Assembly: GCA_947446025.1 (NCBI GenBank)
Contig: CANFEY010000042.1
Location: forward strand, 1-43,668
Length of the DNA stretch: 43,668 nucleotides
Source of the DNA: Bryobacterales bacterium
GTDB lineage: Bacteria > Acidobacteriota > Terriglobia > Bryobacterales > Bryobacteraceae
Direction of reading: 5' to 3'
Shown: in pieces, positions 153 to 2,454 of the stretch
How the letters are laid out: every line of letters begins with the position of its first letter
Position numbering within the stretch: the stretch's first letter is position 1
Made by a program: the position numbers and the translations under genes
The notes under the pieces: generated by a model
Database searches by the model: none
What the model was told of the DNA's origin: nothing
Seen by the model: only the letters and a program-made list of their open reading frames with translations

Positions 153-632
153 GTGGCATTTCTGTGGCCCATTCATCGGGTGCATCACTCGGACCCGGAT
201 TTCGACGTGTCCACGGGCGCGCGCTTTCACCCCCTGGAACCGGTGCTGGTTCAAGCGGTCGATTTAGGCTTGATCCTGTTGCTGGCGCCACCGCCCGCGG
301 CAGTCCTATTCGCGAAACTCGCGGGCGTGGCGAGCAACTTCTTCGAACACGCCAATGCGTCGACGCCGGCATGGGCCGAGCGTATCCTGCGCGCGGGCAT
401 CGTCACGCCGGACCTTCATCGGATACATCATTCGCAAGGTATCGTGGAGCAGAACAGGAACTTCGGTGAGATTTTCACCTGCTGGGACCGGCTCTTCGGA
501 ACCTATAAGGGGCAGACTGCCGGAGGCGACAAAGCGCTCGTCATCGGTGTAAGCGGCTATCAGGACCCGCGCAGTCTGGAGATGGGAGAAATGCTGACCC
601 AGCCGTTCCACAAGGACCGAGGTAGCGAGTAA
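153..632 (+). pseudogene. 5'-truncated sterol desaturase / fatty acid hydroxylase
   Basis: This encodes the C-terminal part of a membrane di-iron hydroxylase of the sterol desaturase family. Two of the family's three histidine boxes are visible, HRVHHSD near the start and HRIHHS in the second half, with the RFHPLEP segment between them. Intact family members are about 250-300 residues; only 159 follow the first possible start, a GTG with no Shine-Dalgarno sequence. The residues just before it in the same frame (HHHVAFLW) resemble the end of the first histidine box, but the frame is cut by a TAG at 129-131, so the N-terminal membrane helices and most of the first box are missing. An inactive remnant is most likely; an assembly error is possible. 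It is convergent with the exosortase gene, whose stop lies directly next to its own. Confidence 0.7.
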
Positions 633-2228
633 CTACCAGTATTGCCACTGCCCCCGGCCGAGGACCCAGATCGCCAAGAGCGCGTTGGTCACCGCGTGGG
701 CAAGCACTGCCTCGCCGATGCTGTTGGTTTTCCTGGCCACCGCGGCGAACGCCAGACCGGCCAGAATGCCAGCCAGCCAGCGCTCACCATGCAGCAATCC
801 GAAAGCAACAGAGGAGCCCAGGATGCCAATCCAGGTTGCGGAGCGGAGCGGAACCGTATCGAAATCAACGTTGCCGATTCTGCGCATCAGGAAGCCCCGG
901 AAGGCAAGTTCCTCGGCCAGAGGCACCGTGGTGGTGGCCGCGAGTGCGCGCAACATGATCCAGGTAAGTTGCCACGCCGCGCTCCCTTGGGCTAGCGGTA
1001 TAGGCATCCCGGCGGAGGGCGTTCCCTGCCACTGGTCGAAGGCCAGCCACAACGCAAAGACGGCAAAGCCGGTGGCCGCGCCCATCCAGCCGATGCTCCA
1101 AGAAAGTGTCGGTAGCCGAGCGCGGAAAAACCAAAGTACGGCAGCAGCGGCCAGGAAGCGGAGTCCGTACAGCCACTCGAAGTCCGCCGACGCGGCTCGG
1201 GAGAGCATGCCGCTAGCAAGGATGGCGAGAAACGGGATGAGGTAGGCCGCCGTGGGGTTGTCGTCCAAAATTGGCTCACGCCGCGCGGGCGGAAATAGGC
1301 TGATCCAACGCAGGCGGGGTGCCAGAATCGTCATTCCAAAGGCGACGCCGTTGAAGGCGATCCAGCCGGCTTGCGAGTGGAATCCACCGGCGGCGATCCG
1401 TTCCGCCCCGGCATCCCCGATGAGCAACAGCGCCGCGATGCGAACCGCGTTCAGCAGAAATAGTGTGACTGCTCCAGCCGGGATCAACAGAAACGCACGC
1501 GGAAAACGGAAGTCACGGCGGTAGAGCCACAACCAGGCGGCGCTGAAGATGAGCATGAGTCCGACGCCCTCAAGGCCCGAGCACTCTTGCGAAATGATCA
1601 CGCCGAAGTGGTTCCCTCGGATGCGCAGCCGGCTCGGGTCAATGGTGAGGTTGGGGATGAGCGGGCGCAGAAGAATCTGCACCATTTCAAAGGTGAGGCG
1701 TGCGGTGGATTGCCACAGGGACTGGCTCCAAATCACCACGGCCAGGCCGAGTGCGGAGACCAGGCTGGCAGTGATCCAGGCAGAGGCCGGAACGCTGAGA
1801 AGGCTTCTCCAGAACCGCCATGGAAAAACACCCAGGCAGGCGGAGAGGACCGCCAGCACGCCCAATAGAAGCCAGGCCGTAACCAGCAGGTTCGGTAGGG
1901 TGACAGCGGGCCAATTTCCATACAGTGCGGCAGAGGCAGCGACGAACGCCGCGGCCAGCCCGGAGTGGGCTGCGAGCCAAACCCACCGTAGCTCACCCGC
2001 GACGGCTTGGGCCTGTTTCCAGGTCCCCTGGACTCCCGCGAAGGCGGCAAATGCAGCGCTGAAGCCGACCATAAACCGCAGCACCCACGCGCCCATGTAT
2101 CCGAGTTGTCCAGGCCAGCCGGAGCGGCCCGCCAGGTCAGCCCCGTCCAGCCAGTTCGTCACGGCTAGCAGTTCGACCAGCAGGAACGCGGCAAGGAAGG
2201 CGGCTCGGCGCAGGACCACGTTTCTCAT
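633..2228 (-). CDS. xrtE: Exosortase E fused to CPBP (CAAX-like) intramembrane protease
   Basis: A polytopic membrane protein of 531 residues from the ATG at 2228. The N-terminal half is an exosortase, a transpeptidase that cleaves C-terminal sorting signals: Cys216 in QECSG, Arg263 in LNAVRIA and His284 in GGFHSQAGW form the expected triad. The C-terminal half is a CPBP/Abi protease with Glu439-Glu440 and Arg444 (EELAFR), His480 (GLLHGE) and His511 (LAHAVTN). This two-domain architecture is that of 'exosortase E/protease, VPEID-CTERM system'. A start ten codons upstream (2258) is possible but lies inside a terminator hairpin, so 2228 is preferred; neither has a good Shine-Dalgarno. The likely substrate gene is directly upstream on the same strand. 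Family assignment is strong; the physiological role is unknown. Confidence 0.9.
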   Translation of the reverse strand: MRNVVLRRAAFLAAFLLVELLAVTNWLDGADLAGRSGWPGQLGYMGAWVLRFMVGFSAAFAAFAGVQGTWKQAQAVAGELRWVWLAAHSGLAAAFVAASAALYGNWPAVTLPNLLVTAWLLLGVLAVLSACLGVFPWRFWRSLLSVPASAWITASLVSALGLAVVIWSQSLWQSTARLTFEMVQILLRPLIPNLTIDPSRLRIRGNHFGVIISQECSGLEGVGLMLIFSAAWLWLYRRDFRFPRAFLLIPAGAVTLFLLNAVRIAALLLIGDAGAERIAAGGFHSQAGWIAFNGVAFGMTILAPRLRWISLFPPARREPILDDNPTAAYLIPFLAILASGMLSRAASADFEWLYGLRFLAAAAVLWFFRARLPTLSWSIGWMGAATGFAVFALWLAFDQWQGTPSAGMPIPLAQGSAAWQLTWIMLRALAATTTVPLAEELAFRGFLMRRIGNVDFDTVPLRSATWIGILGSSVAFGLLHGERWLAGILAGLAFAAVARKTNSIGEAVLAHAVTNALLAIWVLGRGQWQYW

Positions 2229-2245
2229 TATGCAACTTATGCAAC
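2228..2245 (-). repeat. 9-bp tandem repeat at the xrtE start
   Basis: On the plus strand TTATGCAAC occurs twice in direct succession, without mismatch. The repeat fills the gap between the U-tract of the upstream terminator and the xrtE start codon, which it touches, and occupies the place where a ribosome binding site would be expected. Confidence 0.8.
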
Positions 2246-2279
2246 AAAAAACCGGCACCGCCCGAGGGCAGCACCGGTT
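2246..2279 (-). terminator. Rho-independent terminator between sorting substrate and xrtE
   Basis: Read on the minus strand, arms AACCGGTGCTGCC and GGCGGTGCCGGTT pair over 13 positions (ten Watson-Crick, three G-U) around a CTCG tetraloop and are followed by a run of T. It lies 20 bases after the stop of the small CTERM gene and ends 17 bases before the xrtE start. It should end most transcripts of the small gene, with xrtE transcribed by read-through or separately. Confidence 0.8.
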
Positions 2280-2298
2280 CTAAGTGTTTGTTTCCAGA

Positions 2299-2454
2299 CT
2301 ACTTCTTGCGGCGTCCACGCAGGACCAGCAAGCCGCCCGAAACCAGCGCGACGGCTGCACCGGCGGTGTTTCCGTCGATTTCCGGTGCGGTAAATCCCGC
2401 CATCGCAAAAGTAGCGGTGCCCAATAGAATGACCAAGGTTCCTAGAATTTTCAT
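2299..2454 (-). CDS. 51-residue APEID/VPEID-CTERM sorting-signal protein
   Basis: This small gene has an excellent ribosome binding site, AGGAGG six bases before its ATG. Residues 1-19 form a signal peptide (MKILGTLV..., probable cleavage after AMA). Only three residues later comes a PEP-CTERM-type sorting signal: Ala-Pro-Glu-Ile-Asp at 23-27, a small-residue and hydrophobic stretch to about residue 45, then the basic tail RGRRKK at 46-51. This matches the VPEID-CTERM class handled by exosortase E, whose gene lies directly downstream on the same strand. There is practically no mature domain between the export and sorting signals. It may be a membrane peptide, a peptide precursor or a carrier for something added after translation; those roles are inference. 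A longer overlapping frame on the same strand is not coding. Confidence 0.88.
   Translation of the reverse strand: MKILGTLVILLGTATFAMAGFTAPEIDGNTAGAAVALVSGGLLVLRGRRKK

Follow-up and report, generated by a model that had tools for sequence, protein, structure and literature searches.

Domain-less PEID-CTERM peptides beside exosortase E-CPBP fusions in the Bryobacteraceae, their linked hydroxylase clade and a possible route to membrane lipopeptides

What does a sorting enzyme do with a substrate that has almost nothing to sort? The question arises near one end of contig CANFEY010000042.1 from a member of the Bryobacterales (assembly GCA_947446025.1), of which we analyzed a stretch of 43,668 nucleotides, here called the window. 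As the initial annotation had described, a 51-residue open reading frame (positions 2299–2454, minus strand) encodes a signal peptide, the motif APEID, a hydrophobic helix and the basic tail RGRRKK; the open-reading-frame analysis, a tag search and purifying selection among family members all supported it. The predicted precursor reads MKILGTLVILLGTATFAMA before the cut and GFTAPEIDGNTAGAAVALVSGGLLVLRGRRKK after it, with the cut site placed by eye. The signal peptide would span approximately residues 1–19 and be followed by the spacer GFTA (20–23), PEID (24–27), the helix and RGRRKK (46–51). Export and sorting signals nearly abut, as had been claimed, with about four residues between them in the window peptide, an arrangement typical of the window's family. 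The peptide scored 16.2 bits against the VPEID-CTERM model TIGR04161, missing its cut-off of 33, and has the traits of that family: motif, helix, basic tail, a signal peptide (by eye) and a neighboring xrtE. At a permissive E value of up to 10, 35 out of 39 family peptides matched TIGR04161, the best at 1.9e-8.

The neighboring gene, xrtE (positions 633–2258, minus strand), starts 40 bases downstream of the peptide frame on the same strand and encodes 541 amino acids from a GTG codon. Its product, an exosortase E fused to a CPBP/Rce1-like glutamic protease, exceeded the TIGR04162 cut-off of 150 with 178 bits and matched the Pfam families Rce1-like and Exosortase_EpsH. In an alignment of 28 XrtE sequences that includes the one from the window and draws on records labelled Acidobacteria, Planctomycetes, Gammaproteobacteria and Myxococcales, C226, R273 and H294 were invariant on the exosortase side, as were E449, E450, R454, H490, H521 and N525 on the CPBP side. 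We take C226, R273 and H294 to be the exosortase Cys-Arg-His triad, and the invariant CPBP-side residues are presumably catalytic as well. These results bear out the proposal of an adjoining exosortase-CPBP fusion with all its triad residues, and the invariance of catalytic-type residues across the 28 sequences makes both halves look active. The excerpted text of PMC11980579 names EExxxR, H and HxxxN as CPBP motifs, and all three are present in the fused CPBP half of the window XrtE. The AlphaFold2 model of XrtE had a mean pLDDT of 87.9; a fold search of the PDB with it returned no match with E < 0.001, which is uninformative either way, and a sequence search against solved structures returned a single match at chance level (E 0.16). 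At one family locus (L045, G023:C2), XrtE appeared as two frames, one for the exosortase and one for the CPBP part, with a peptide and the hydroxylase nearby; this is either a natural split or a frameshift.

To set the peptide frame against chance, we scanned for small PE[ILVMF][DNSGP]-CTERM frames and found one at 69 out of 80 named XrtE loci (the best 80 of 289 relatives), compared with none of five control pieces of the window and two out of 80 reversed loci; the named loci overlap the family loci, many being the same contigs. All three loci recorded as Myxococcales were among the 11 without such a frame. Selection was estimated from 16 close pairs, which include tandem copies and are not fully independent; a broader pair set, which held distant pairs picked for low synonymous change, was set aside. 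Overall dN/dS was 0.20 (0.15–0.27, bootstrap over pairs). For the xPEID motif and everything after it the value was 0.10 (0.06–0.14), compared with 0.39 (0.20–0.68) in the six residues preceding the motif and 0.38 (0.24–0.61) in the remaining signal-peptide portion. Taking the scan contrast together with this purifying selection, the peptide frame goes beyond chance. On these comparisons, the reading frame is real and its tag is preserved, with the would-be mature peptide preserved much less. A product whose identity depends on its processed C terminus would be expected to show such selection on the tag.

To place the pair in the window's family, we searched 200 genomes and found XrtE over the cut-off in 39 of them, at 42 places. 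The peptide profile was built from 39 hand-picked minimal peptides, leaving out longer, broken and PEP-type frames and some near copies; because some of these came from the same loci, it is favored toward XrtE genomes. At an E value of 0.01 it matched at least 46 out of 200 genomes, including all 39 with XrtE, and at least 7 of the 161 without XrtE over the cut-off; 34 first-look candidates were scored in nearly every genome, so these counts are lower bounds. The seven comprise G023, whose XrtE is broken across two frames, four genomes with strong matches (G024, G049, G058 and G097) and two with weak ones (G032 and G036). At 36 out of 42 places XrtE had a peptide within 1.5 kb, 35 times in the same orientation. 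As for the other six, three (G067, G113 and G186) are at or near a contig end and one (G112) is on a 4.9-kb contig; in G093 the peptide is about 4 kb off, and in G119 the genome's second XrtE has a peptide. Peptides also occurred away from the enzyme, with 48 out of 98 peptide places more than 2.5 kb from any detected XrtE, and genome G140 carried eight copies. At one locus (L013:239-1279), five tandem minimal peptides precede a single XrtE. Another bacterial order, covered by 293 genomes centered on that of L142 (labelled Cellvibrionales), yielded eight XrtE places in six genomes. One of these was the hydroxylase-bearing L142 contig itself, and five out of the seven newly fetched XrtE stretches contained a small but longer, low-complexity VPEID-type gene.

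We then asked how far the lack of cargo extends. Out of 77 peptides extracted from family loci, 72 were at most 60 amino acids long; the 77 include one spurious frame (L051, 122 amino acids), and frames lacking a detected start and signal-like stretch had been dropped. The median number of residues ahead of PE was 24. Since the cleavage-site rule often cut too early (leaving 9 residues in the window peptide, compared with 4 by eye), we relied on whole length and on the latest possible site, which left five or fewer residues before PE in 61 of the 72 peptides with a recognizable cut site. The median length was 52 amino acids for 75 family peptides, and the longer real ones were found at L034 (69 amino acids), L037 (94, Pro-rich) and L038 (70). 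A profile of the tag alone, run over the 39 XrtE genomes, matched at least 90 places (a lower bound, as nine genomes had more than the 150 first-look candidates scored), and the longest open frame among the matches listed was 156 amino acids. By contrast, 16 of the 22 PEP-CTERM tags over the cut-off in the host genome, which encodes three further exosortases, lie in open frames of more than 200 amino acids. By comparison, the recognizable XrtE substrates of the window's family are nearly all predicted domain-less precursors. The initial annotation had made its minimal-peptide idea depend on relatives lacking a long conserved mature domain and on a conserved frame; within the family, the homologs proved small and their frame is under purifying selection. 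Two host PEP-CTERM tags over the cut-off, on contigs C73 and C25, lie in frames of 65–66 amino acids, so XrtE may not be alone in having short substrates. Cargo-free substrates would thus typify XrtE without necessarily being unique to it.

Outside the family, substrates were longer. Median lengths were 63 amino acids for 13 peptides from Planctomycetota, 64 for 16 from other acidobacteria and 84 for 21 from proteobacteria, and these non-family peptides have longer low-complexity spacers, many with His- or Gly-rich stretches. Two cultivated relatives that carry XrtE, Silvibacterium bohemicum and Terracidiphilus gabretensis, likewise have spacers somewhat longer than that of the window peptide. 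Minimal size is therefore not essential to the system. Among eight plasmid records, four had an annotated gene of 57–71 amino acids directly before xrtE, one of which (57 amino acids, Rhodobacterales) is annotated as VPEID-CTERM. The remaining records had an unannotated frame before xrtE (L057), an 88-amino-acid VPEID-CTERM gene a few genes downstream (L061), a tag in a 205-amino-acid frame (L064) or no tag gene that we could find (L063). A Rhodocyclaceae XrtE locus (L132:353-3809) has three tags (PEIDPASGTSALTL and others) in frames of 286, 309 and 391 amino acids, a counterexample to the small-substrate rule that lies outside the medians given here.

Near its start, the window also holds part of a third gene. 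Positions 153–632 (plus strand), convergent with xrtE, encode a truncated PF04116 fatty-acid hydroxylase that belongs to the peptide-associated clade and keeps the His boxes HRVHH and HRIHH (83.1 bits, cut-off 31); only its C-terminal portion is present, the N-terminal one being absent from the contig. Just before it, at the contig end, lies a copy of a repeated sequence (positions 1–147). The region 1–150 matched four other host contigs over 145–149 bases at 99–100% identity, three of them within the first five bases of the contig, and a fifth over 52 bases. A second peptide of the host sits next to another hydroxylase where contig C15 ends. That end also carries a piece matching residues 3–113 of a related hydroxylase, and the window piece begins at residue 113 of the same reference. 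On the simplest reading, XrtE, both peptides and two hydroxylases probably belong to a single locus that was split in assembly by a repeat inside one of the hydroxylases.

Further investigation revealed that the hydroxylase is a recurrent partner. The 44 genomes with strong peptide matches contained 57 PF04116 fatty-acid hydroxylase genes, in 33 of them, and 17 of the 57 lay within 2.5 kb of a peptide, compared with 0.09 expected from uniform placement; 14 of these 17 are convergent (tail-to-tail) with the nearest peptide. In a tree of 56 rows (59 extracted, with one spurious and two short sequences dropped) whose bootstrap had not fully settled, 16 of the 17 grouped in one clade (99/93) that contained adjacent rows only; the remaining one, G093:C81, fell elsewhere. 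Comparison therefore indicates that one specific hydroxylase clade adjoins peptide genes in a subset of genomes. The pairing occurred in 15 genomes, 13 of which have XrtE (13 out of 39 XrtE genomes, or 12 without the tree outlier in G093). As 11 of the 17 had no XrtE match on the same contig, the hydroxylase tracks the peptides more than it tracks XrtE. No hydroxylase was found at any of the seven newly fetched XrtE loci from the other order, and, together with the 13 out of 39, this makes the hydroxylase accessory at most.

Related hydroxylases directly follow xrtE in three gammaproteobacterial loci (labelled Porticoccaceae, Cellvibrionales and Gammaproteobacteria), and one follows XrtE and a peptide in acidobacterium L110; all of these fall just outside the clade, in a wider group (92/98) with two long-branch non-adjacent rows. 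In the gammaproteobacterial loci (L124, L130 and L142), peptide, xrtE and hydroxylase stand in a row on one strand, and in L142 the hydroxylase frame overlaps the end of xrtE. The His-box histidines were invariant in an alignment of nine hydroxylases. OlsE (NF052566) was the sole NCBIfam match of the seven relatives scanned, at 74–91 bits; these and the window fragment (58.9 bits) stayed below the 475-bit cut-off. A structure model of the hydroxylase (pLDDT 76.4) gave no PDB fold match with E < 0.001, which is uninformative either way, and a sequence search against solved structures gave no match.

Other genes recur near XrtE as well. The hydroxylase was found at 15 loci, epimerases, beta-barrel receptors and an unnamed 283-amino-acid family at nine each, Gfo/Idh oxidoreductases at seven, and MacB-FtsX proteins, Poly_export proteins, protein kinases and SdrD B-like proteins (in Planctomycetota) at six each. 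We claim no linkage for any but the hydroxylase, because several loci are one contig seen twice and the background was measured for the hydroxylase only. A single member of the large-protein family of the six Planctomycetota loci (L117:5773-9609, L121, L125, L126, L131 and L143) was scanned and had SdrD B-like and SpaA domains, and two Rhodobacterales plasmids (L058 and L062) carry an annotated SdrD B-like protein near xrtE. The SdrD B-like family is possibly a second XrtE partner.

How might these parts work together? The explanation that we consider best, while giving it somewhat less than an even chance, has XrtE attaching the short peptide to a membrane lipid that the hydroxylase tailors. 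Gene linkage, conservation, co-occurrence and conserved catalytic-type residues form the established part; the chemistry we infer by analogy. The precursor would be exported by Sec and lose its signal peptide. XrtE would then cleave at PEID and pass the new C terminus of the oligopeptide to an amine-bearing membrane lipid, as has been proposed for archaeosortase A. The hydroxylase would hydroxylate the lipid or the conjugate, its nearest curated relative acting on the amino-acid head of ornithine lipid, and the CPBP half may take part in the cut or else trim or degrade the helix that it releases. We would expect short peptides of several different sequences, each tethered to a lipid and acting at the surface or in the membrane, not as a freely diffusing signal. 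For this closest precedent, the excerpted text of PMC7157517 describes artA next to the lipid-synthesis gene pssA in Methanosarcina and reports lipid anchoring of ArtA substrates; transfer to archaetidylethanolamine is a proposal there. The passages of the literature that our search covered contained no demonstration of lipid transfer by a bacterial exosortase and no statement of the attachment target of bacterial exosortase substrates. That PF04116 enzymes act on many substrates counts against the lipid-tailoring reading, as does the recurrence of sugar and polysaccharide-export genes in the vicinity of XrtE. The broader idea, that XrtE, the domain-less peptides and the hydroxylase clade constitute a dedicated system making ribosomally encoded peptide-lipid conjugates (small membrane lipopeptides) and not one for protein sorting, is more doubtful, and we would sooner bet against it. 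If it is true, a product of a few residues beside a lipid-type hydroxylase would let the attachment question be answered by small-molecule mass spectrometry, not by the proteomics of large surface proteins, and it would suggest that a sorting enzyme can be used for making small molecules.

Lipid attachment has to be weighed against other roles for the peptide. The small protein might stay in the membrane, as a two-helix hairpin or a cut stub, and serve XrtE as cofactor, regulator or pseudo-substrate, with other proteins as the true cargo. In favor, constraint is strongest on its helix and tail, and at 35 out of 42 places xrtE has the peptide gene within 1.5 kb in its own orientation. Against it, among the matches listed no tag in the 39 genomes lies in a frame of more than 156 amino acids, 48 out of 98 peptide places are not within 2.5 kb of a detected XrtE, and G140 has eight copies; we regard this role as unlikely. 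We are slightly more skeptical of the peptide as acceptor, primer or anchor for an envelope polysaccharide or other polymer. PEP-CTERM systems are tied to exopolysaccharide in the excerpted text of PMC1569441, glycosyltransferase, flippase or sugar-transferase genes occur within several kilobases of xrtE in most Rhodobacterales plasmids examined, and neighbor clusters include a GDP-mannose-dehydratase-like epimerase (nine loci) and a Poly_export protein (six), some being the same contig twice. However, sugar genes are present at a minority of loci and have no measured background, peptide arrays away from XrtE are marked by the hydroxylase and not by sugar genes, and a Salipiger plasmid locus sits among molybdenum-cofactor and formate-dehydrogenase genes.

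The initial annotation had tentatively suggested the maturation of a peptide signal or a peptide anchor. The anchor fits better and gains the hydroxylase as a partner, whereas the signal is weakened, to the point that we consider a secreted pheromone matured by XrtE and its CPBP half improbable. The small precursors, their tandem copies (five in L013) and the CPBP protease family's maturation of peptides elsewhere would suit such a signal. Its would-be released residues, however, are weakly constrained (dN/dS 0.39, 0.20–0.68, compared with 0.10 in the tag) and differ within one genome, and among the ten neighbor clusters scanned we identified no receptor or regulator apart from a protein kinase at six loci. 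With constraint strongest in the tag and relaxed just before it, a conserved pheromone is disfavored. That the peptides are degenerate relics of once larger substrates is very improbable: a frame without start or signal peptide (L040) and a match split over two frames (G102) look like decay, but a dN/dS of 0.20 over 16 close pairs, a median of 52 amino acids in 75 family peptides and a peptide match in 39 out of 39 XrtE genomes do not.

Several known systems resemble parts of this one. OlsE, an enzyme that hydroxylates ornithine lipid at its ornithine head (PMC3972451, excerpted text), is the only NCBIfam match of the seven hydroxylases and shares conserved His boxes, but the peptide-linked hydroxylases score far below its 475-bit cut-off and adjoin peptide genes. 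Myxosortase MrtX is likewise a CPBP protease associated with a C-terminal tag, the MYXO-CTERM, which it cuts (PMC11980579, excerpted text); unlike XrtE, it is a stand-alone CPBP protein, its tag has an invariant Cys and its cargo is protein. Archaeosortase A, with PGF-CTERM, PssA and PssD, is likewise a sortase-like Cys enzyme with a lipid gene alongside in Methanosarcina, whereas its cargo is the S-layer, its neighbors make lipid heads in place of a hydroxylase and it is archaeal, as far as the excerpted text of PMC7157517 goes. The PEP-CTERM/EpsH system shares a signal peptide and a tripartite C-terminal tag, and as early as 2006 four fusions of EpsH to a CAAX protease had been pointed out (PMC1569441, excerpted text); its tags in the host lie mostly in frames of more than 200 amino acids (16 out of 22), whereas the XrtE peptides have no cargo. 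Exosortase E/VPEID-CTERM (TIGR04162 and TIGR04161) agrees in having XrtE over the cut-off, the residues of both halves conserved and an adjoining small xPEI(D/N/S) gene. It differs in that the window peptide falls short of the substrate model (16.2 against 33), domains are almost absent from the family substrates and there is a link to a hydroxylase clade. We found neither domain-less substrates nor a hydroxylase link in the literature searched, whose scope did not include a 2012 exosortase survey that may mention small substrates. The pairing of XrtE with VPEID-CTERM is already a named family; as far as that literature goes, what appears new is the domain-less repertoire and its link to the hydroxylase.
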